A stretch of 8,046 bases of DNA from Planctomycetota bacterium (GTDB lineage: Bacteria > Planctomycetota > UBA8108 > UBA1146): NCBI GenBank assembly GCA_002691835.1, contig NZJA01000019.1:1-8046 (forward strand). The letters run 5' to 3'. Of this stretch, positions 1 through 8,046 are shown piece by piece. The notes beneath the pieces were generated by a model. The model made no database searches and was not told the DNA's origin. It worked only from the letters and a program-made list of their open reading frames with translations. The position numbers and the translations under genes were made by a program. Positions within the stretch are counted from its first letter, which is position 1. The number at the start of each line of letters is the position of its first letter.

Positions 1-398
1 ACGACGGGTAATGTCGCAGTATCTCCTAGTGCTACATAAGTATCCCGACGACGAAGAATGTGCTGTTCAATGAAATCTAAACTCGGGCCTGGTATGCCCG
101 TGTGCAGCTCAAAATCAGAATCTAAGACATCGCTCGTAGGGACTTGGGCTTGGTCGGCATAAGCGACAACCTGGTCTCCTTGATAGAGCAAAGTCACACG
201 ACAGTTTTCCGAAAGCATGGGACGGCTATTCGATTCTCCCCGATTTTTGGGAAGGTACGACCTTAGGGTCCCCTCTGGCATTTTGAATTTCGTGGCCAAC
301 ATGAAGAAGATCAACAGAAGAAATACGACGTCGATCATCGGTGTCATATCAGCCTCAGCCTTGTTGCCGTCGGGGTCAACTACCTTGCGTCTTGCCAT
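1..398 (-). CDS. ExbD/TolR-type biopolymer transporter subunit, second paralogue (3' end outside window)
   Basis: Stator subunit of a proton-driven inner-membrane motor; it should pair with the ExbB-type channel upstream. The reading frame starts at ATG 398 and stays open to the left edge, giving 132 codons with no stop, so the C-terminus is missing. Residues 1-17 are a short cytoplasmic tail. Residues 18-37 hold the family signature MTPMIDVVFLLLIFF, with the proton-carrying Asp at residue 23. A single transmembrane helix follows, then a periplasmic domain from about residue 40. The start is secured by a strong Shine-Dalgarno just upstream. The gene lies 59 bases after the first ExbD. The two paralogues share only the signature helix region: this one lacks the poly-lysine tail and its periplasmic part (residues 41-132) reads quite differently. 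Family assignment is secure; the specific partner or cargo is unknown. Confidence 0.93.
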   Translation of the reverse strand, partial: MARRKVVDPDGNKAEADMTPMIDVVFLLLIFFMLATKFKMPEGTLRSYLPKNRGESNSRPMLSENCRVTLLYQGDQVVAYADQAQVPTSDVLDSDFELHTGIPGPSLDFIEQHILRRRDTYVALGDTATLPV

Positions 399-400
399 GA

Positions 401-410
401 TTCCTCCTTT
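401..410 (-). promoter_or_regulatory. Strong ribosome binding site of the second ExbD gene
   Basis: On the minus strand this reads AAAGGAGGAA, ending two bases before the ATG at 398, with the GGAGG core 4 bases from the start. It is the strongest Shine-Dalgarno in the window and fixes the start of a gene whose 3' end is missing. The rest of the 59-base gap (399-457) shows no convincing promoter or terminator, so this gene is probably read on the same transcript. Confidence 0.75.
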
Positions 411-457
411 CCTCTTCCCATCCGAACTTGCCGGACAAATCTATGAACACGGATCGA

Positions 458-967
458 TTACTCCGGGTTGTATGGGTCCTCAAGTCGTTCTCCGATTGCC
501 GCACAGCGAACCTTGTAGATCCGCGCTTTCGAACAGGCACCGAAGATCTTGTGAATATTTCCGCTTTCAGCTCCCTGATCACACCGAATCGTCACTTCAA
601 TACGAGACAACCGTGCTCGCGGATCCGGATTTGCCGGATTATCTTCATAGAGACCGTAAGCTTCTGCTTCCTGTCTCAACGCGAGTGTCAATTGCTCTGT
701 CGTCATTGCGGGGCCATTCATCAACTGAATGACTTCCTTCCCCTCTGAATCAAAGGAGACATTGACGAAAAGAATCCGACTTCCAGGCTGGGGTTCTTCA
801 ACTGTCGCTTCCGATGCGACAGGGAGAATCACCTCAGCCTGTTGCACCGTGAGCTCGGTGACCACCATAAAGAAAACGATGAGCAGGAAAACGATATCGA
901 TCATGGGCGTCATGTCCATGTCGACTCCTTTTCGTGCGATCACGATTTTCTTCTTTTTCTTGGCCAT
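458..967 (-). CDS. ExbD/TolR-type biopolymer transporter subunit, first paralogue
   Basis: Stator/plug subunit of an ExbB-ExbD-type proton motor, 169 residues. That is somewhat longer than the usual ~140 for ExbD. Residues 1-13 are a very basic cytoplasmic tail (five consecutive lysines at 3-7). The signature MTPMIDIVFLLIVFF follows at 19-33, with the conserved Asp at 24 in the single membrane helix (about 22-38). The periplasmic domain begins near QAEVILPVA (43-51), the usual beta-strand after the helix. It ends in a region matching the typical 'vtI.cD...yg.i..i..a' pattern (123-150). A loop at about 103-120 (YGLYEDNPANPDPRAR) looks like an insertion and may explain the extra length. Cysteines sit at 129, 145 and 155, unusual for ExbD and possibly oxidisable in the periplasm. 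It starts 17 bases after the ExbB stop, with GGAG 5 bases before ATG. A housekeeping TolR is less likely because no tolA/tolB neighbours follow. Confidence 0.93.
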   Translation of the reverse strand: MAKKKKKIVIARKGVDMDMTPMIDIVFLLIVFFMVVTELTVQQAEVILPVASEATVEEPQPGSRILFVNVSFDSEGKEVIQLMNGPAMTTEQLTLALRQEAEAYGLYEDNPANPDPRARLSRIEVTIRCDQGAESGNIHKIFGACSKARIYKVRCAAIGERLEDPYNPE

Positions 968-984
968 ACCTGCTCCGTCCAGCC

Positions 985-1749
985 CTAAGCTTCAGCAACA
1001 TCATCGAAACGGGACATCAGTTCGGAGGCGATGCTACTCACCTCTACTGAAGCTCCGTCAATGATCGTTTTAAGAATGAAGTAGGAAATCGTCATTGGAA
1101 TCGCCACGATCAATCCCATCATGGTCGTCATCAATGCTTCCGAAATTCCCCCAGCGAGATCTTTTGGCTTCGGTGAGGTTTTGCTGGTTGCGATCACGTT
1201 GAAGGCACCCACCATTCCCATCACCGTTCCAAGCAACCCCAGCATGGGCGAAATGGCTGCGATCAGTGAAATGTAGCTGATTTTACGATGTAAATCAGAA
1301 GACTCCATTTCACCGGCCTCTTCCATGGCTTCCTCGATGTCCTCGTAAGGACGATCAATCTTCGGAAGCCCGGCAGCCAATACGCTCGAAAGGAAACACG
1401 GCTGCTGTTCGCAGGCGTCCAGAGCCCCCTCGAAGTCATCGGTCTCAAATAGAGACTCCACATGATCCAGAAGGTCCGGTGGAACCAGAACGTCACGCCT
1501 GAGTTGCATTCCATGCATCAGGGTCAGCGCCATTCCCGCTCCAGAGAGAAGAATCAGAATCACACCCACTGTTCCGGCGGCCTTAATGTTATCAAGAACC
1601 GAAACCGTTTCCGCTGGAACTTCGCCATCGGATTGTGCGTAAGCAACAACACTGGTTCCAAGAACGAGCGTTACTGCAAAAATGGTCAAGAGAAGAACAC
1701 GGGTCAACGACGCGCCCCGAATCTTACTCATGAAACCTGTCAACATCAT
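985..1749 (-). CDS. MotA/TolQ/ExbB proton channel family protein with signal peptide
   Basis: Inner-membrane channel subunit that couples proton flow to work on periplasmic partners, together with the ExbD-type proteins that follow. From ATG 1749 it is 254 residues. Residues 1-39 form a signal-peptide-like start (hydrophobic core RVLLLTIFAVTLVLGTSVV, then AYA-Q near 37-39), which E. coli ExbB lacks. Membrane helix 1 is at about 58-79. A cytoplasmic domain at 80-155 holds LVPPDLL, two cysteines (113, 118) and an acidic helix. Helix 2 is at about 157-184 with the family motif SPMLGLLGTVMGMVGAF (167-183). Helix 3 is at about 203-228 (EALMTTMMGLIVAIPMTISYF). The frame could begin at TTG 1800 inside the preceding gene, but AGAGAGGAAAG ahead of ATG 1749 favours the shorter form. 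The signal-peptide form of ExbB is, as I recall, common in planctomycetes. Family call is secure; cargo is not known. Confidence 0.95.
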   Translation of the reverse strand: MMLTGFMSKIRGASLTRVLLLTIFAVTLVLGTSVVAYAQSDGEVPAETVSVLDNIKAAGTVGVILILLSGAGMALTLMHGMQLRRDVLVPPDLLDHVESLFETDDFEGALDACEQQPCFLSSVLAAGLPKIDRPYEDIEEAMEEAGEMESSDLHRKISYISLIAAISPMLGLLGTVMGMVGAFNVIATSKTSPKPKDLAGGISEALMTTMMGLIVAIPMTISYFILKTIIDGASVEVSSIASELMSRFDDVAEA

Positions 1750-1753
1750 TTTT

Positions 1754-1764
1754 CTTTCCTCTCT
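1754..1764 (-). promoter_or_regulatory. Ribosome binding site deciding the ExbB start
   Basis: The minus strand reads AGAGAGGAAAG here, with the GAGG core 8 bases before the ATG at 1749. It favours 1749 over the TTG at 1800, which would lie inside the end of the preceding gene, and over ATG 1731, which has no clear Shine-Dalgarno. The 38-base gap to the preceding stop holds nothing else recognisable. Confidence 0.65.
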
Positions 1765-1787
1765 CACCCTTGGTTCAGGTGATTCGA

Positions 1788-2870
1788 TTACTTGTTCCAA
1801 CGGGAGTCTGGTGCGACTTGTTTAAGTCTTTGTGTCAAATTTTCAGCACGTTCAGAATCGCCCTGTTTTTTTGCTAATTCCTTGGCACGGTAAAGAGCCT
1901 CAGCAAGGACTTCTCCACTTCCACTGGTAGCCATGACTGCAGCTCGCAGATAGCGAATCATCGCCCACTGTAACTCTGCAGAGTCTCCTCCAGCTTGCTC
2001 TTCAGTAGATCGTCCCCAAACCAACCAACCATGCGCAAGGGCGGCAGTGTTGGCCTGGATTTCTTTATTTCGCGATTCCAAAATCTGCTTGCGAACAGAA
2101 TCCGCAGCCTGAGTCCATTGCTTCTGACCCTGTTGAGCACTGGCATAGCCGATCCATGCTTGACAAATTTGATCAGTGGATGCATTAGAATCATTCGAGA
2201 CCGAAGAAAACTCTTCTCTGCACTGGACCCACTTTTCCTGGGCCAGCAAACTCTGGGCTTTACCAAGCCGTGCGCCCAGCACCCATCGACGTCCGAGATT
2301 ACCGGATGCCAGACTGGAGAGAGCACTCTCAGAATCAGAGTAATTCCCGGATTTTCGGTGGGCCTCGGAGAGAGCCATTCGAGCATGGGGAACATAGAAA
2401 TCTTTTTTACCTTCAAACTCACTGAGGTATGCCCCCAGAGCGGTAATCGACTCCTGGTACTTAGCGGGATCAGAATCACCCCAGCGCAATAGCGACAATC
2501 CGTGCATGTACATGGCACTCGATTTTTTAAGAGCGTCACCCATGCTCGTCGCCGCTTTGAAACTACTCGCAGCAGTTTCCCAATCACCATTTTCAAATGC
2601 CCCACGTCCGCGGGCCAAACTTGAGGACTCTCTGGAAAAGATCAGTCGAAGCACCTTGTCAGCATCCACCTTCTGGGCAGTGCTGACACCTGGAAGCTTG
2701 AACTGAACCTGTTCATAGCTCGCTCCGGTAATCGTCACATCGTCATAGTTCCTACCACCAGTGACAATGATTTGGTCAGCGAGAAGCTCAGTTCCTACCA
2801 TTGGGCTGAATCCCAGGAACATCAAAAGGAGCATTAAGTAGCGGTTCATCGCGGGTGTTCTTTCCATCAT
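1788..2870 (-). CDS. Secreted TPR protein with N-terminal small beta domain
   Basis: Predicted periplasmic protein of 360 residues, probably a protein-protein scaffold. Residues 1-31 hold a hydrophobic export signal (LMLLLMFLGF core, cleavage perhaps near LLA-DQ). Residues 32-80 form a compact beta domain (IIVTGGRNYDDVTITGASYE, then VDADKVLRLIFSRE). It follows the SH3-like pattern 'DxIxLkdGxxxegVxVxxxxyxxVxxx...IxxxxVxxI' that I recall ahead of TPRs in planctomycete proteins. TPR-like helices follow: 85-118 (ARGRGAFENGDWETAASSFKAA), about 160-188, 199-226, 236-262 and 322-353. Its ATG at 2870 overlaps the preceding TGA stop (2867-2869) as ATGA, so translation is likely coupled. ATG 2849 (MNRYLMLL) is an alternative start with a shorter signal peptide. 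The TTG at 2876 is less likely. It sits between the large TPR protein and the ExbB/ExbD motor, compatible with a link between motor and envelope, much as the TPR protein CpoB accompanies Tol-Pal. No enzymatic motif is visible. Confidence 0.87.
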   Translation of the reverse strand: MMERTPAMNRYLMLLLMFLGFSPMVGTELLADQIIVTGGRNYDDVTITGASYEQVQFKLPGVSTAQKVDADKVLRLIFSRESSSLARGRGAFENGDWETAASSFKAATSMGDALKKSSAMYMHGLSLLRWGDSDPAKYQESITALGAYLSEFEGKKDFYVPHARMALSEAHRKSGNYSDSESALSSLASGNLGRRWVLGARLGKAQSLLAQEKWVQCREEFSSVSNDSNASTDQICQAWIGYASAQQGQKQWTQAADSVRKQILESRNKEIQANTAALAHGWLVWGRSTEEQAGGDSAELQWAMIRYLRAAVMATSGSGEVLAEALYRAKELAKKQGDSERAENLTQRLKQVAPDSRWNK

Positions 2871-5716
2871 TTGCAATCCGACTCAAGTTGATCAAAACGA
2901 GACTGGAGATCACCGGGAGCAAACGCTTTGCCATCGCCGGCCATCAATCTCCTGCTACGAATCAACTGCACCACATCCTCACAACGACCCTGTGCCTTCA
3001 AGACTTCCATGTACTGGAGCCATGCAGACCAGTAATCACGCTCAAAAACCGGATTCGTTCCACCGGAAAACAACAGGGATTTTCGTCGCTGATCAAGAAT
3101 CGCAATCGCGGACTGAAGATCGTCGGACATAGAGGTCAACCTCTTAGCCGAACGATCAGACTGGTAGAGGCCCAGCTCAGCAGTCGCTTTCTGAATCAGC
3201 ACAAACGGGGCTTCGTTGTAGGAGCCTCCAAAAGTACTCTCCCCATAGTTCTCGATAATTGCATTCAGGCTGTCGAGAGCTTCCTGATTCTTTCCAGCAG
3301 CATTGGCCGCCTTGGCCAGGAAATAGGAAACCCCGATCACGAGGGACTCTTCCCCCGATTCCATCGCTTCCTCTTGTGCTTTCGAGAGCATCCCGGCAGC
3401 TTCAGCTGAGAATCCACCATCGATCAGAATCGAGGCCAGGCCGAGTCGAACTCCAGGGCCAGACTCGTCAAACCCTGATCCCGGTAGCTGAATCCAATCC
3501 AGAACCAGTTCCCCGGCACGCCTCTGGTCTTCCTTTTTTGAGGAAGCGGCATAGGCTTCGATCAGATAGTAAGTACCGGCGACAAGCGTACTACTCTCAG
3601 GCCAAACTTTCCGAAGCTCAGCAAGAACCTGCTCTGATTCCAGTGTCTTGCCATTGGCTGACAAGATTTCCAGCAAGAAGAGCAATGCTCCTTCACGGTA
3701 AACATTATTTCCACCGAGATCCTTCAGCACTGGCTGAAGATATTTGAGGGCCTCATCACTGTCTTTGCCACGGTCTCCCCAGTAAATCTTGGCGAGTTCA
3801 TAACGAAGAACAGATTCCCCACCGACGCTGCGAGCTTCGCGAGATTGCGTCAGCAACGGCAAGACTTCACCGAGAGCATCCTTGCGGGCTTGTTCAACTT
3901 CAGTACTGGCTCTAAACAGGCAGCGGGCTGCTCCGGCCCGGGCTCGGAAGAAAAACGGAACCGCCTGCTCTTCGTCGCCATCATTGTATGTCTTGGAAAC
4001 TCTTCTAAAGAGGTCGCGCGCTTTACGGTAGTCCCCTTCCAGCTCAGCTTCGACAGCCTGCTGAAGTTTCAGTTGCTCGCTTCCCAATCCTTTGGAATTG
4101 TCTGCAAACAACTTTTCTGCGGTGACCAATAGCTTGTCCCATGGACTTGGCTGGCCACTACCGGCAAAGTCCCCTGCGATGGCAAAGAAGTTTTGGGCAG
4201 CCATCGCCACCATTCTGGAATCCGGATAGTTCTCGGCTAACTCCTGATAAGCCAGCGCCGCTTCTGTTGAGCGGCCGAGAGCATCGCTGGATTCACCGAT
4301 CTCATAGAGAGCTTCGGCACGCCAGTTTGCGGAATCTGGACTGTCATCATTGGCGTACAAAGCCAACTTTGCAGTTTCAATCGATTTCGCTGGCAGTCCA
4401 CGGTCGCGGAAACCTAGCGCAGCACGAGCATAAAACTCCGCTGGAAGATCTCCGGCTCCCAATTCCTGAAGTCGGCTCAATCCACGATTGATGCCGGTGA
4501 CGACTTCACGTGCCTGGGCAGGATCTGTTGAATAAGCGTCGGGGGTGTCAAAGCGAGCGATCACCCCTTTGATGAGTTCAAACCCGAGTGCCCGATCTCC
4601 ACTGGCCAGACGGGTGACCCCTTCTTCCACATCCAATAGCGCCACCAGCGTTGATAGCTCTGGGTCTTCCGGCGTTTTACGGTAGGGAAAGTCTGCCTGT
4701 TCATCTTCGTAAAGGAAGTCGAGAAGGTCCAAGCCATCCTGAGGCTGACCCGATCGGTTGTAAGCACGCAACGATCCGGTCAATGCTTCCACTCGCATCT
4801 TGCGAATGAAATACACCACATCATCGTTGTAAGGAGGATCAGCACTCGGCTCAATATCCACCAAGAGCTCCAGAGCCCCGGCCGCCTCAGCCGCTTGGCC
4901 TGAAGAAGACAGAGCCTGACCGTAAATCAACTGAGCTTCGTATCTTCGCCCAAAGTTTTCGTAACGAGAATTCACGAATTCGTCTGCAAAGTTAGCAAGT
5001 GCCATAAACATGGCCTTTGCCGAATCTCCTCCATCGGGAAGCATTCCGGCATAAACCTTGTAAGCATTCAGTCGATTAAATTCCCAAAGATCGCGGATCC
5101 GGGTTTCCTCGGCCAGTTTGCCGGCGAGCTCATTTCTTTCAGAGTCACCCGCACTCGCCTGCCCGAGTTTCTGTATCTTGTCTTCCGTCCTGGAAACTTC
5201 GTCATTCAGCCTGCGGATATTCTCAGAAAGGACATTCTCAATCTCATCATTCCAGATTCGATCCCTCTGATCCATCGCCTGCTGGCGCTGGGAAGGACTC
5301 GTCGCGAAGACCATTTCGGTATTGGCATCAGAGAGTCGCAACAACGAAGCAAGAACCGATTCGAGCTGGGCACCCTTTGACCTGGGATGATTGGGATACT
5401 TTTTAGCGAGGCTTTGAATCTCAGCTTCATACCCATCGACATCGCCTTCGATGCGTAAGGCATCGGCAAGAGCAAACTCAAGAGTGGCGCGGCCGCCAGA
5501 ATCGGCAGTCTTGATCCGGGACTCGATCCACACCCTCGCCAAATCGGGAGAAGCATAGGTCCCCAAGAGCTCTCCGACGAACACTGTTTCCTCACTCGAC
5601 AGTGCTCCTCTTCCCAATGACTGGGCATGCGCTGACACCGGTGCCAAAAGCACCGCTGCCAGAGCCAGACCAGAGACGCAAGACGTCCATTTGGAAAAGG
5701 GCGATCCGTGGAACAT
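2867..5716 (-). CDS. Large secreted TPR/alpha-solenoid repeat protein
   Basis: Predicted periplasmic or outer-membrane-associated scaffold of 949 residues with no catalytic motif seen. Residues 1-32 are a clear signal peptide (basic start, LALAAVLLAPVSAHA, cleavage near AHA-QS at 31-33). It has no lipobox, so it is not an evident lipoprotein. Most of the rest is helical repeats. An early pair spans about 75-125 (LRIEGDVDGYEAEIQSLAKKYP). A charged coiled-coil-like stretch lies at about 150-212 (Gln/Glu/Arg-rich). The best TPR units are near 462-500 (ALYEIGESSDALGRSTEAAL, then YPDS) and 548-580 (AELEGDYRKARDLFRRVSKT). More degenerate units run to about 880, and the chain ends in a helix finishing LESDCK. 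The start has AGAAGG 5 bases upstream and lies 40 bases after the secretin stop. Its stop overlaps the next gene's ATG. Co-transcription suggests it bridges the secretin and the ExbB/ExbD motor; that role is inference. The specific family is not recognised. Confidence 0.88.
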   Translation of the reverse strand: MFHGSPFSKWTSCVSGLALAAVLLAPVSAHAQSLGRGALSSEETVFVGELLGTYASPDLARVWIESRIKTADSGGRATLEFALADALRIEGDVDGYEAEIQSLAKKYPNHPRSKGAQLESVLASLLRLSDANTEMVFATSPSQRQQAMDQRDRIWNDEIENVLSENIRRLNDEVSRTEDKIQKLGQASAGDSERNELAGKLAEETRIRDLWEFNRLNAYKVYAGMLPDGGDSAKAMFMALANFADEFVNSRYENFGRRYEAQLIYGQALSSSGQAAEAAGALELLVDIEPSADPPYNDDVVYFIRKMRVEALTGSLRAYNRSGQPQDGLDLLDFLYEDEQADFPYRKTPEDPELSTLVALLDVEEGVTRLASGDRALGFELIKGVIARFDTPDAYSTDPAQAREVVTGINRGLSRLQELGAGDLPAEFYARAALGFRDRGLPAKSIETAKLALYANDDSPDSANWRAEALYEIGESSDALGRSTEAALAYQELAENYPDSRMVAMAAQNFFAIAGDFAGSGQPSPWDKLLVTAEKLFADNSKGLGSEQLKLQQAVEAELEGDYRKARDLFRRVSKTYNDGDEEQAVPFFFRARAGAARCLFRASTEVEQARKDALGEVLPLLTQSREARSVGGESVLRYELAKIYWGDRGKDSDEALKYLQPVLKDLGGNNVYREGALLFLLEILSANGKTLESEQVLAELRKVWPESSTLVAGTYYLIEAYAASSKKEDQRRAGELVLDWIQLPGSGFDESGPGVRLGLASILIDGGFSAEAAGMLSKAQEEAMESGEESLVIGVSYFLAKAANAAGKNQEALDSLNAIIENYGESTFGGSYNEAPFVLIQKATAELGLYQSDRSAKRLTSMSDDLQSAIAILDQRRKSLLFSGGTNPVFERDYWSAWLQYMEVLKAQGRCEDVVQLIRSRRLMAGDGKAFAPGDLQSRFDQLESDCK

Positions 5717-5721
5717 GGAAA

Positions 5722-5727
5722 CCTTCT
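5722..5727 (-). promoter_or_regulatory. Ribosome binding site of the large TPR protein
   Basis: The minus strand reads AGAAGG, 5 bases before ATG 5716, supporting this start. The whole 40-base gap between the secretin stop and this gene (5717-5756) has no hairpin-plus-T-run terminator, so the two genes are probably on one transcript. Confidence 0.55.
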
Positions 5728-5756
5728 ACCCGACTTTCGTCAGGAGAGCTGATCGA

Positions 5757-8046
5757 TTAGTTAAAACGTTTCTCTTCTTCGTCACGAATCACAGTGATTT
5801 TGGCACTGATCAACACAAACAAGTTGGACTGCATCCGGGCGTTCCCCTTACGTCCAGCAAGAAGATCCAGAATTGGCAGTCGAGAAAGAACCGGAATACC
5901 GGATCGGGATTCCTGCGTAATCGTTCTTTTCAGTCCTCCCACCAAAACCGTTCCACCATCCGGAATAGTCACAGTGGTCTTAATGTTGGTCACAGAAAGT
6001 ACCGGGAATTCGACATTCAGGTTAGTGAGACCCAATGTGAGAGTCTTGAATCTGGAAGGCAACTGCACCGCAAGGGTCGGCTCGATTTCAAGAATCACAT
6101 ACTTTCGGTCATGACTGACGGTAGGCCTCACCTGGAGGATCGAACCGGAGTTAAGAATTCCGATCACGGGATTGATCACGGGGACCACACCCGTTTGGTT
6201 GACTTCGGCATCTTCAATATACGCGCTCTGATCGACCACCAGCGAGTGCGAAATCTGGGTGTTGAAGGCCGTGACCCTCGGGGCATCCAGTTTCTTGGTA
6301 CGCTGCATTTTTTGATTCGCCTCAAGAATCGCCTCAAGGGCGTAACTGTCGAGGACGTTGTATTGCAGTGCAAACCCTCCGGTATCGGAGAGGTTGAAGG
6401 GTGAAACCGAAGATCCGAGAGGAAGAGAGAACGCGTTGTAAACAGCAGCACGCACATCAATCTCACCCTGAGCATCGACGATTTCAAAACCGGAAGCGAT
6501 CTGGGTACCGGCACCATCAATGTCGTTGATCGGGTTCGGCAGGTTCGAGTTGAATGGGTTACCGTAATCTACCCCGATCGACTCCAGGAAATTGTCCTGA
6601 AGATCGATGAAGCGACTCTCCACTGTCACCATCACTCCGGTCGACTTTCTCAATGCCTTCAGGAGCTGAACCAGTTTGCGATGATTGGAAAGAGTCGTGT
6701 TCGCAACCAGGCGACCACTCTGAATCTTTACCGACTCGCCATCCGGTTCTCCTTCATCCCCGAAGAGAGCATTGATGACCAGCTCAACCAGGATGTCAGA
6801 ATCAAGAGTCGTCTCCTGTGAATCTTCTTCACCACCGATATCAAACAGGCCGCCCGCTCCACCTTCGTCACCGTCACTGTTCGACTCAAGAGCCAAACGT
6901 GGTGCACGGAAATCAGGCTTGTCCTTGGTGATATCCGAAACTTCGTAGAACTCGAGGAAGACGTCATTACGTACAGAATCGGAAGGACCAATAAGAACGG
7001 CTCCAGAACGAATGACGTATGTGAATGGAGGATCGTTCCCCTGAAGTACCAGATTGAGGACGTTTTCAAGCGGCAGGTCGGTCACTTCAGCCAGACGAAC
7101 GGTGCCGTCTCCACCTTCAAGGGAATCGGAAGCTTCCTTGGTAAGCACGAAGTTGATCCCGGAGAGCTCTCTCAGAAACTGGATCACTTGCTCAAAAGGC
7201 TCGTCTTCAAACTCAACACTGGCGACCCGAACCTTGAGACGGGAACGGATCGTCTTTTCCTGCTGACTCTCGACGGCTTGGAGACGATCCTCAAGGGACA
7301 GCTCCTGACGGCTGATTCGCAACCACTCTTCGCGAGTCGGGAAGTTAAAGATATCTGTGTAAGGAATCTCTGACTCTAACTGGCTCAGGAAAGTTCTATC
7401 CCACTCCAATTGAGTCTGAAGGCTGGTATCGAGAACTTCGTAAAGGTGACGGAGTTCTGCAGCTTCACGACGCAAAGCACGCACGTCTTTACGCGACGGA
7501 TCGAGCTGAAGCACTTCATCACAAAGACTGATGACGCGCTCATAATCTCGCTCAGCGAAGAGTCGGCGAGCCTGACGAAGAATCTCGTCAATGCGGTTCT
7601 GAATGAAAGAAACGGAACGAGCCATTTCAGATTCGGCTTCTGCCAGAATCCGCATTTCACGCTCACGCTTCTCAGAAGAGGCATACTCATTCTGTAAACG
7701 AATCGACTCTTCCTTGGATTGACGAGCACGATTCTGCTGATCGCTCAGATCGTAATCAAAGGGGAACCAGCGGATGCGCTCCAGAATCTGATCGAAGACA
7801 GTAATGGCTTTATCATAACTGCCATCGTCCATAGCTCTGCGACCATCGAGGTAGAGTCTTTCCAACTCGAAGACATCCTGCTGCAATCGAACCTTCTTCT
7901 CATCGACCATGCGACGCTGAAGATCACGAATATCTCCACTACGATCACTGAGCAGCATCAGCACAGTGAGCAGCGTGTCGAAGAGTAGCAGCATCTCGAC
8001 GAGCAGCATCGGCCGGCCCGACGCGCGTCCGTCCGTCCGCGATCTC
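5757..8046 (-). CDS. Secretin family outer-membrane channel protein with TPR N-terminus (5' end outside window)
   Basis: Subunit of a multimeric gated outer-membrane pore of the type II/III secretion and type IV pilus secretin superfamily. The frame is open to the right edge. The first ATG inside, at 8009, gives 750 residues, but it has no Shine-Dalgarno and no proper signal peptide follows, so the true start is probably beyond the window. Numbering from that ATG: TPR-like units at about 55-85 and 143-178 (ARRLFAERDYERVISLCDEV), charged coiled coil at 90-140, an STN/N0-like domain at about 258-346 (FEQVIQFLRELSGINFVLTK), and a secretin-N-like domain at about 350-460. The latter is split by an acidic Gly-rich insert (375-402). 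The secretin core is at about 545-743 with KKLDAPRVTAFNTQ (572-585), VTIPDGGTVLVGGLKR (680-695), SGIPVLSRLPILDLL (703-717) and NLFVLISAKITV (729-740). It ends seven residues later on EEEKRFN, so there is no long C-terminal pilotin-binding S domain. Exact system is unassigned: no GspE/PilB-type ATPase is in view. Confidence 0.92.
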   Translation of the reverse strand, partial: RSRTDGRASGRPMLLVEMLLLFDTLLTVLMLLSDRSGDIRDLQRRMVDEKKVRLQQDVFELERLYLDGRRAMDDGSYDKAITVFDQILERIRWFPFDYDLSDQQNRARQSKEESIRLQNEYASSEKREREMRILAEAESEMARSVSFIQNRIDEILRQARRLFAERDYERVISLCDEVLQLDPSRKDVRALRREAAELRHLYEVLDTSLQTQLEWDRTFLSQLESEIPYTDIFNFPTREEWLRISRQELSLEDRLQAVESQQEKTIRSRLKVRVASVEFEDEPFEQVIQFLRELSGINFVLTKEASDSLEGGDGTVRLAEVTDLPLENVLNLVLQGNDPPFTYVIRSGAVLIGPSDSVRNDVFLEFYEVSDITKDKPDFRAPRLALESNSDGDEGGAGGLFDIGGEEDSQETTLDSDILVELVINALFGDEGEPDGESVKIQSGRLVANTTLSNHRKLVQLLKALRKSTGVMVTVESRFIDLQDNFLESIGVDYGNPFNSNLPNPINDIDGAGTQIASGFEIVDAQGEIDVRAAVYNAFSLPLGSSVSPFNLSDTGGFALQYNVLDSYALEAILEANQKMQRTKKLDAPRVTAFNTQISHSLVVDQSAYIEDAEVNQTGVVPVINPVIGILNSGSILQVRPTVSHDRKYVILEIEPTLAVQLPSRFKTLTLGLTNLNVEFPVLSVTNIKTTVTIPDGGTVLVGGLKRTITQESRSGIPVLSRLPILDLLAGRKGNARMQSNLFVLISAKITVIRDEEEKRFN
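7950..8010 (-). repeat. In-frame GATGCTGCT repeats coding a Leu-rich segment
   Basis: The minus-strand word GATGCTGCT occurs at 8010-8002, 7995-7987 and 7959-7951. The 10-base form GATGCTGCTC is repeated exactly at 8010-8001 and 7959-7950. All copies fall in the same frame and give the tripeptide Met-Leu-Leu three times, at residues 1-3, 6-8 and 18-20 counting from ATG 8009. The segment is Leu-rich but broken by Glu5 and Asp11, so it is neither a clean signal peptide nor a clean membrane helix. It could be an amphipathic or leucine-zipper-like helix, or sequence damage near the window end. Confidence 0.5.
8011..8046. other. Abrupt GC-rich tail with tandem GTCC repeats
   Basis: In the last 36 bases 29 are G or C, clearly above the near-balanced rest of the window. 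They contain three perfect tandem GTCC units (8027-8038) and stretches of alternating CG. In the secretin frame this reads as an Arg/Gly/Ser/Pro-rich peptide (RSRTDGRASGRP) with no secretin or signal-peptide character. It may be a contig-end artefact, a chimeric join, or a genuine divergent N-terminus. Confidence 0.4.

Follow-up and report, generated by a model that had tools for sequence, protein, structure and literature searches.

Six genes on one strand

We analyzed a stretch of 8,046 nucleotides from a Planctomycetota bacterium (contig NZJA01000019.1 of assembly GCA_002691835.1), hereafter called the window. It holds six genes, all on the minus strand, in the order secretin (SEC1), two tetratricopeptide repeat (TPR) proteins (TPR1 and TPR2), ExbB, ExbD1, and ExbD2, with intergenic gaps, in that order, of 40, -10, -13, 17, and 59 bases. 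Comparison with related sequences indicates that the window is only the middle part of a larger conserved planctomycete cluster, which is a good candidate for a machine that moves large molecules through the envelope. An initial annotation had described this close one-strand order of a secretin, two TPR proteins, an ExbB, and two ExbDs, and the minus-strand open reading frames (ORFs) and Pfam matches confirmed it (Table 1). All six genes are as it stated, except for the completeness of the outermost two: both window ends cut genes, the secretin being 5′-truncated with a false start and ExbD2 incomplete.

The secretin domain of SEC1 found its best solved-structure match in PilQ (E = 1.6e-11). 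The protein also matched the Amuc_1098 family of NCBIfam (E = 3.3e-21), at 75 bits and thus far under the model cut-off of 750. Its full-length relative P0002 has 838 amino acids, with an N-terminal hydrophobic segment followed by TPRs. The initial 78-86 minus-strand bases of the window (~7961-8046), which give the secretin its false start, could not be aligned to six relatives and are therefore likely to be a contig-end artefact; the rest of the window aligned end to end with loci L002 (78% DNA identity) and L005 (76%). TPR1 gave a weak YbgF match (TIGR02795, E = 1.5e-11, 45 bits compared with a cut-off of 90), and both TPR proteins begin with signal-like hydrophobic segments, as judged by eye and from a hydrophobicity scan of relatives. 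The transmembrane aspartate of the ExbDs is present in 144 of the 145 ExbDs found in the first three locus sets described below. The closest named protein matches of the window were Planctomycetota metagenome proteins, those of TMED53 among them, and its DNA is TMED53-like.

The cluster in related genomes

At E <= 1e-40, a TPR-secretin query found matches in 144 of the 199 genomes sampled within the phylum, and the matches were often paired on one contig, ~10 kb apart. Four sets of loci were compared, with genes taken as longest-ORF calls. Set 1 (L001-L039) came from the secretin scan, and set 2 (L107-L126, 20 loci) was selected for paired secretins. Set 3 (L127-L166) holds the best-secretin loci of 40 hand-picked genomes (E of 2.5e-63 or better), paired ones excluded, and set 4 (L167-L186) contains 20 loci from 19 weak-match genomes, 8 already known to have an ExbD near. 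Near-identical stretches occurred within set 1 (L001/L004, L002/L004, L006/L007, and L010/L011), and none was found between set 1 and the others. Loci with other secretins (L040-L044) were left out of the counts. We called a locus linked when the secretin and an ExbB lay on one strand within the fetched stretch.

By this definition, 82 of the 119 loci in all four sets were linked, including that of Engelhardtia mirabilis (G170), which lies on a 6.9 Mb contig. Every one of the 20 paired-secretin loci carried an ExbB and at least two ExbDs between both secretins. Our frequency estimate was taken from set 3 alone, which is the least selected, though hand-picked and not random: here an ExbB and at least two ExbDs stood on the secretin's strand in 23 of 40 loci. 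The linked loci were also alike in composition, with at least two ExbDs in 75, TPR genes before ExbB in 78, a PilM-PilN fusion upstream in 48, and a downstream secretin in 54. L177 was counted among the 82 although it has a single ExbD, lacks a TPR match, and carries a tRNA synthetase gene between secretin and ExbB. The genomes examined had 2-15 ExbD matches each, apart from one with none, so that a 20 kb stretch taken at random would, on a rough estimate, contain an ExbD with a probability of a few per cent. Because 82 of 119 loci were linked, the secretin-ExbB arrangement is not a matter of chance neighbors.

In relatives, the cluster continues beyond both ends of the window. Upstream lie a PilM-PilN fusion (PilMN), a protein of the Amuc_1100/PilO fold (X), and a further protein (Y), all absent from the window; downstream, a second secretin (SEC2) often follows ExbD2. 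These loci thereby hold a platform of the PilM/PilN/PilO (GspL/GspM) type as well as the combination of PilM, an Amuc_1100-type protein, and a TPR secretin that is known from the mucin-utilization locus MUL2 of Akkermansia. When protein Y was compared with solved structures by sequence search, it gave weak FN3-like matches alone (best E = 0.0036).

To compare the two secretin positions, we used a quick tree with three long outgroup branches, in which 64 secretins came from the upstream position and 50 from the downstream one. The position labels needed 4 changes on this tree, compared with a shuffled mean of 40, suggesting that upstream and downstream secretins have long been kept as separate lines. 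The positions are not two single clades: downstream secretins fall into three groups, of which the largest has 31 members, the next has 17 and includes the window's lineage, and the smallest has 2. For either position label, the branches with good support require two or more changes. A single old duplication is therefore not established; a pair of events, or exchanges, would be compatible with the tree too. Eight near-clade genomes have five secretins each, two of these ~9 kb apart on one contig, together with 2-4 ExbDs per genome.

A Sulfatase-family protein with C-terminal TPRs comes directly after the ExbDs in 24 of the 82 linked loci and in 0 of 29 in the window's own set. C/S-x-P-S/A-R is the usual sulfatase active-site pattern; it was found in the first 200 residues of 0 of the 30 detected proteins, for which reason we do not regard them as true sulfatases, and 23 of the 30 contain T-L-P-A/S/G-H. 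With the sulfatase pattern missing and mostly TLP[ASG]H in its place, this protein may be a phospho-type hydrolase or transferase. Upstream of the cluster, L030:1-2225 encodes LptD and a CoaD-like cytidylyltransferase, and a cytidylyltransferase gene also lies upstream in L006. The cluster is further carried by L012 and L015, metagenome-assembled genome records titled Bacillota and Proteobacteria, whose labels are probably wrong; the contig of L015 ends after the secretin and TPR1.

Table 1. Coordinates of the window genes and of selected features in related loci
Feature	Position	Strand	Evidence or remark
SEC1, outer-membrane secretin with N-terminal TPRs	5757..8045	-	Pfam Secretin PF00263, E = 3.7e-20
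TPR1, large TPR protein, 949 amino acids	2867..5716	-	Pfam TPR families, E = 6.5e-14
TPR2, TPR protein, 362 amino acids	1788..2876	-	Pfam TPR families, E = 1.4e-5; 10-base overlap with TPR1
ExbB/TolQ-type proton channel, 271 amino acids as called from TTG	985..1800	-	MotA_ExbB PF01618, E = 1.5e-29
ExbD1 stator, 169 amino acids	458..967	-	PF02472, E = 4.2e-17; transmembrane aspartate in TPMID motif
ExbD2 stator, 3′-truncated, 132 of ~170 amino acids visible	3..398	-	PF02472, E = 2e-11; TPMID motif
Sulfatase-family TPR protein, examples	L109:3637-5544, L112:14402-16369, L126:3360-5123		
Three tandem secretin genes, no ExbBD found nearby	L178, L179, L180		PilM-PilN fusion beside them in L178 and L180
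Giant secretins, 1,396-1,704 amino acids	L207:5880-10535, L210:4516-9627, L212:10289-14479, L214:9676-14790		Genomes without linked cluster

A candidate proton-powered secretin platform and its rivals

Prepilin-type motifs were found in 0 of 99 loci (1.74 Mb), compared with four in the control type II secretion system (T2SS) locus L078. Among 20 loci added later, only L177 had a classical prepilin motif (N_methyl, E = 2.5e-9), giving a total of 1 in 119. Queries with PilB, GspE, GspF, and PilT from TMED53 matched 6 of 7 control loci and only 2 of the 119, namely a weak match in the unlinked L131 (E = 1.5e-6) and, in L177, an ATPase resembling PilT whose gene lies on the opposite strand. No prepilin, no PilB/GspE/PilT, and no GspF was found in the 75 loci with a secretin, ExbB, and at least two ExbDs (hereafter well linked), which rules out a complete ordinary T2SS or pilus locus. 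A single query, the C-terminal part of TonB (E <= 1e-3), matched no secretin-bearing locus, its sole match being in the secretin-less L204; within the reach of that query, a local TonB operon is ruled out as well. General scans showed no TolB or Pal among the flanking proteins, no dedicated search having been made.

TMED53, whose own cluster is linked, keeps the ordinary systems elsewhere. One locus holds PilM, PilO, a PilQ-type secretin, and a PilT-like ATPase; a second holds GspD, E, F, and G with prepilin motifs, and there is a further PF00437-T2SSF pair as well as a separate ExbB-ExbD-TonB locus. Another TMED53 secretin adjoins a CHAT-domain (caspase-like) protein (L080:972-5985). These data bear on the view that ExbBD drives TonB-dependent receptors and that its adjacency to the secretin is historical only. 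ExbB and ExbD are classically paired with TonB, which is sometimes encoded far away (PMC12204202; here and below, statements from sources with PubMed Central (PMC) identifiers refer to the parts of them that were available). The separate ExbB-ExbD-TonB locus of TMED53, the secretin-bearing loci without a match to the single TonB query, and conservation in 82 of 119 loci nevertheless make this view highly improbable.

Taken as a whole, the initial annotation is partly supported, and its observation is right and more general than first stated. The gene order on which it depended is kept far beyond close relatives, and no ordinary T2SS, pilus, or TonB system, to which the genes might instead have belonged, was found flanking the well-linked loci; the looser L177 has a prepilin and a PilT-like ATPase. 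Its further proposal, a proton motor acting on the secretin through the TPR proteins, agrees with the conserved linkage and with the ordinary systems lying elsewhere. It does not hold in the form of a free-standing secretin driven through the TPR proteins alone, because relatives add PilMN with an Amuc_1100/PilO-like platform and often a second secretin.

We observed the gene content, two folds, and the conservation, and we found the well-linked loci to lack prepilin, ATPase, and GspF genes as well as any match to TonB. From this we infer, tentatively but as a real possibility, one trans-envelope machine, a secretin platform powered by the ExbBD stator and probably serving macromolecule uptake. 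PilMN, X, and Y would form an inner-membrane ring of the type IV pilus kind, which would dock on the outer-membrane secretin pores (SEC1 and, in many lineages, SEC2) via periplasmic parts including TPR domains, and TPR1 and TPR2 would bridge or brace the periplasm. ExbB and the two ExbDs would be the motor, with proton motive force replacing a cytoplasmic ATPase and its pilin piston. This motor might open the gate of the secretin or drive a cycle of the complex, acting on the secretin-platform complex via TPR1/TPR2 or X/Y, and the likeliest job would be to bring large polymers into the wide periplasm. ExbB5-ExbD2 harnesses the proton motive force to move a partner in the periplasm, and secretins are the docking sites of PilM/N/O rings; it is on these grounds, and on the visible ExbD aspartate, that we propose that the stator acts on the secretin platform.

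Several findings weigh against such a machine. Seventeen of the 40 least-selected loci were unlinked, and in 5 of these the contig stops ~5 kb or less past the secretin on its downstream side; G149, a further genome counted as unlinked, has TPR1-TPR2-ExbB-ExbD-ExbD and then a secretin fragment on another contig. PilB/GspE-family (PF00437) ATPase genes are present elsewhere in 28 of 28 genomes, and their products could serve the platform in trans. In G037 and G064, three tandem secretins accompany PilMN, and ExbBD was not found in the fetched stretches on either side, although G064 has two TPR2-like genes (E ~1e-27) ~11 kb downstream, without ExbB. G199 likewise has three secretins and no ExbBD found, its contig ending 3.7 kb downstream. 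The best genome-wide TPR2 matches in these three genomes reached E values of 1e-19 to 1e-23, compared with 2e-105 in TMED53. Beside another three-secretin cluster, L177:13193-19999 contains the tRNA synthetase, ExbB, and single ExbD genes together with those of a prepilin-type protein and, on the other strand, the PilT-like ATPase. From the literature, MUL2 has been interpreted as an attachment device (PMC13174399), and gold-labeled dextran binds pili-like fibers, 12 nm wide, that are rooted in some of the large crateriform structures of planctomycetes (PMC5394234). A pilus would fit both reports better than a pilin-free pore.

A rival reading is a type IV pilus or T2SS platform, specific to the lineage, that obtains its ATPase, PilC/GspF, and pilins from elsewhere, with ExbBD and the TPR proteins as accessories to secretin assembly or peptidoglycan anchoring, as in ExeAB/GspB. 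The PilM-N, PilO-like, and PilQ-like parts of the cluster agree with that reading, as do the ATPases elsewhere, the three-secretin platforms with no ExbBD found nearby, the gene neighborhood of L177, and the dextran-binding fibers. However, the PilM-PilO-PilQ and GspD-E-F-G loci of TMED53 each own a secretin, 75 loci with at least two ExbDs are without pilin, ATPase, and GspF genes, and 82 of 119 loci have a linked ExbBD module. We consider a pilus or T2SS platform of this kind unlikely, though it must be taken seriously.

The motor module also occurs away from the secretin, in G048, G070, G090, G102, and G126, a further point against coupling. On the single contig of G126, PilMN-X-secretin lies at one locus and TPR1-TPR2-ExbB-ExbD-ExbD at another. 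In G048, G070, and G090 the TPR-secretin query was unmatched at E <= 1e-15; these genomes have a PilM-type gene, recognized by the PilMN profile in G048 and G070 (E ~1e-125) and by Pfam PilM in G090, together with a giant secretin of 1,551-1,704 amino acids and, at a distance from that secretin, the TPR1-TPR2-ExbB-ExbD-ExbD module. In G048, ~9 kb separates the giant secretin from PilMN, which is on the opposite strand, and in G070 another, ordinary-sized secretin lies ~8 kb from PilMN. G107 combines PilMN and a giant secretin with TPR1-TPR2 elsewhere, without ExbB, and with three ExbBD loci, none adjoining TPR1-TPR2. Pfam TPR was not found in the two giant secretins scanned. Because the module can be apart from the secretin in several genomes, linkage is not by itself proof of coupling, and there is room for a separate role. 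That the blocks tend to co-occur even when split favors one system.

Such a separate role could be that of a Tol-Pal-like motor, TPR-TPR-ExbB-ExbD-ExbD being merely co-transcribed with the secretin and pinning the outer membrane to the inner in the manner of a press-stud, with no transport. The weak YbgF/CpoB match of TPR1 and the module's occurrence apart from secretins in the five genomes are consistent with this, and crateriform structures seem to fasten both membranes together (PMC5394234). Since the linkage to secretins recurs across the phylum and the families matched are those of pores and pilus platforms, we find a purely envelope-holding motor quite improbable.

Possible macromolecule uptake and comparison with known systems

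If the cluster does encode a proton-powered secretin platform, published work on planctomycetes suggests what it may carry. Dextran and green fluorescent protein accumulate in the planctomycete periplasm, and the uncoupler carbonyl cyanide m-chlorophenylhydrazone (CCCP) abolishes dextran uptake in Gemmata (PMC5394234); chondroitin sulfate reaches the same periplasmic compartment by a mechanism termed unknown (PMC5520146). Crateriform structures number ~104 per Planctopirus cell, and all or some of them join the outer and inner membranes, their part in macromolecule uptake being a speculation of that study (PMC5394234). The proteins that build them are unnamed in the available parts of PMC5394234 and PMC5520146. 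By analogy with these reports on Gemmata, Planctopirus, and chondroitin sulfate, and with those on Akkermansia and Fibrobacter below, uptake appears more likely than export, and the cluster possibly corresponds to the crateriform structures.

The operon supplies a concrete and testable gene list for planctomycete macromolecule uptake. Its boldest interpretation would be a new class of envelope machine, in which a secretin is gated by ExbBD via a pilus-type ring and from which both pilin piston and secretion ATPase are absent. In planctomycetes this machine would be identical with the crateriform structure and would import proteins and polysaccharides in a CCCP-sensitive manner, as an energized counterpart of MUL2. 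We regard this full combination as improbable. If true, it would mean that a secretin can be run by a proton stator in place of a secretion ATPase, and it would tie the mucin-use genes of Akkermansia to a widespread planctomycete system. Our searches of the open-licence PMC literature found no description of a secretin-ExbBD operon.

The cluster is related to MUL2 of Akkermansia muciniphila (Amuc_1098-1102, with PilQ; gene lists in PMC13174399 and PMC4960237), with which it shares PilM, an Amuc_1100-type protein, and a secretin with N-terminal TPRs. This PilM-Amuc_1100 locus is one of two mucin-utilization loci, and no outer-membrane protein is more abundant than its TPR secretin (PMC4960237); reviews describe mucin transport or accumulation as dependent on MUL genes (PMC12418764, PMC12928651). 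MUL2 as described has the pilin-like amuc_1102, compared with a classical prepilin motif in 1 of the 119 planctomycete loci, and ExbB is unmentioned in the available parts of its descriptions. In the planctomycete cluster, by comparison, PilM is fused to a PilN-like part, ExbB/ExbD/ExbD and two TPR proteins are linked, and a second secretin is often present.

Groupings like that of the motor genes have been reported in other bacteria. In Fibrobacter succinogenes, FSU_2397 and FSU_2398 (TPR) and FSU_2400-2402 (ExbB, ExbD, ExbD) have neighboring locus tags, and these TPR, TPR, ExbB, ExbD, and ExbD proteins are raised on cellulose (PMC6851124). However, FSU_2400-2403 is termed a TonB/ExbB/ExbD cluster there, the passages available do not mention a secretin, and the TPR likeness is one of description only. 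TPR, TolQ-like, and paired TolR-like genes are likewise grouped in the Planctomycetes-Verrucomicrobia-Chlamydiae group, where von Willebrand factor A proteins are named as force transducers and a secretin is unmentioned in the part of the article available (PMC12204202).

Compared with the classical systems, the cluster shares the PilM, PilN-like, and PilO-like platform and the PilQ/GspD-family pore with the type IVa pilus (PilMNOPQ) and the T2SS, yet in the 75 well-linked loci a proton motor stands in place of the prepilin, GspF, and PilB/GspE/PilT genes. With TonB-ExbB-ExbD and Tol-Pal it shares ExbB/ExbD stators with a proton-binding aspartate and a TPR neighbor that may be of the CpoB kind, and it differs from them in its secretin, its usually two ExbDs, and the lack of a TonB match in secretin-bearing loci. 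The families of the parts are known, and what appears to be new, as far as our literature searches reach, is the pilus-type platform, TPR secretins, and ExbBD motor together.

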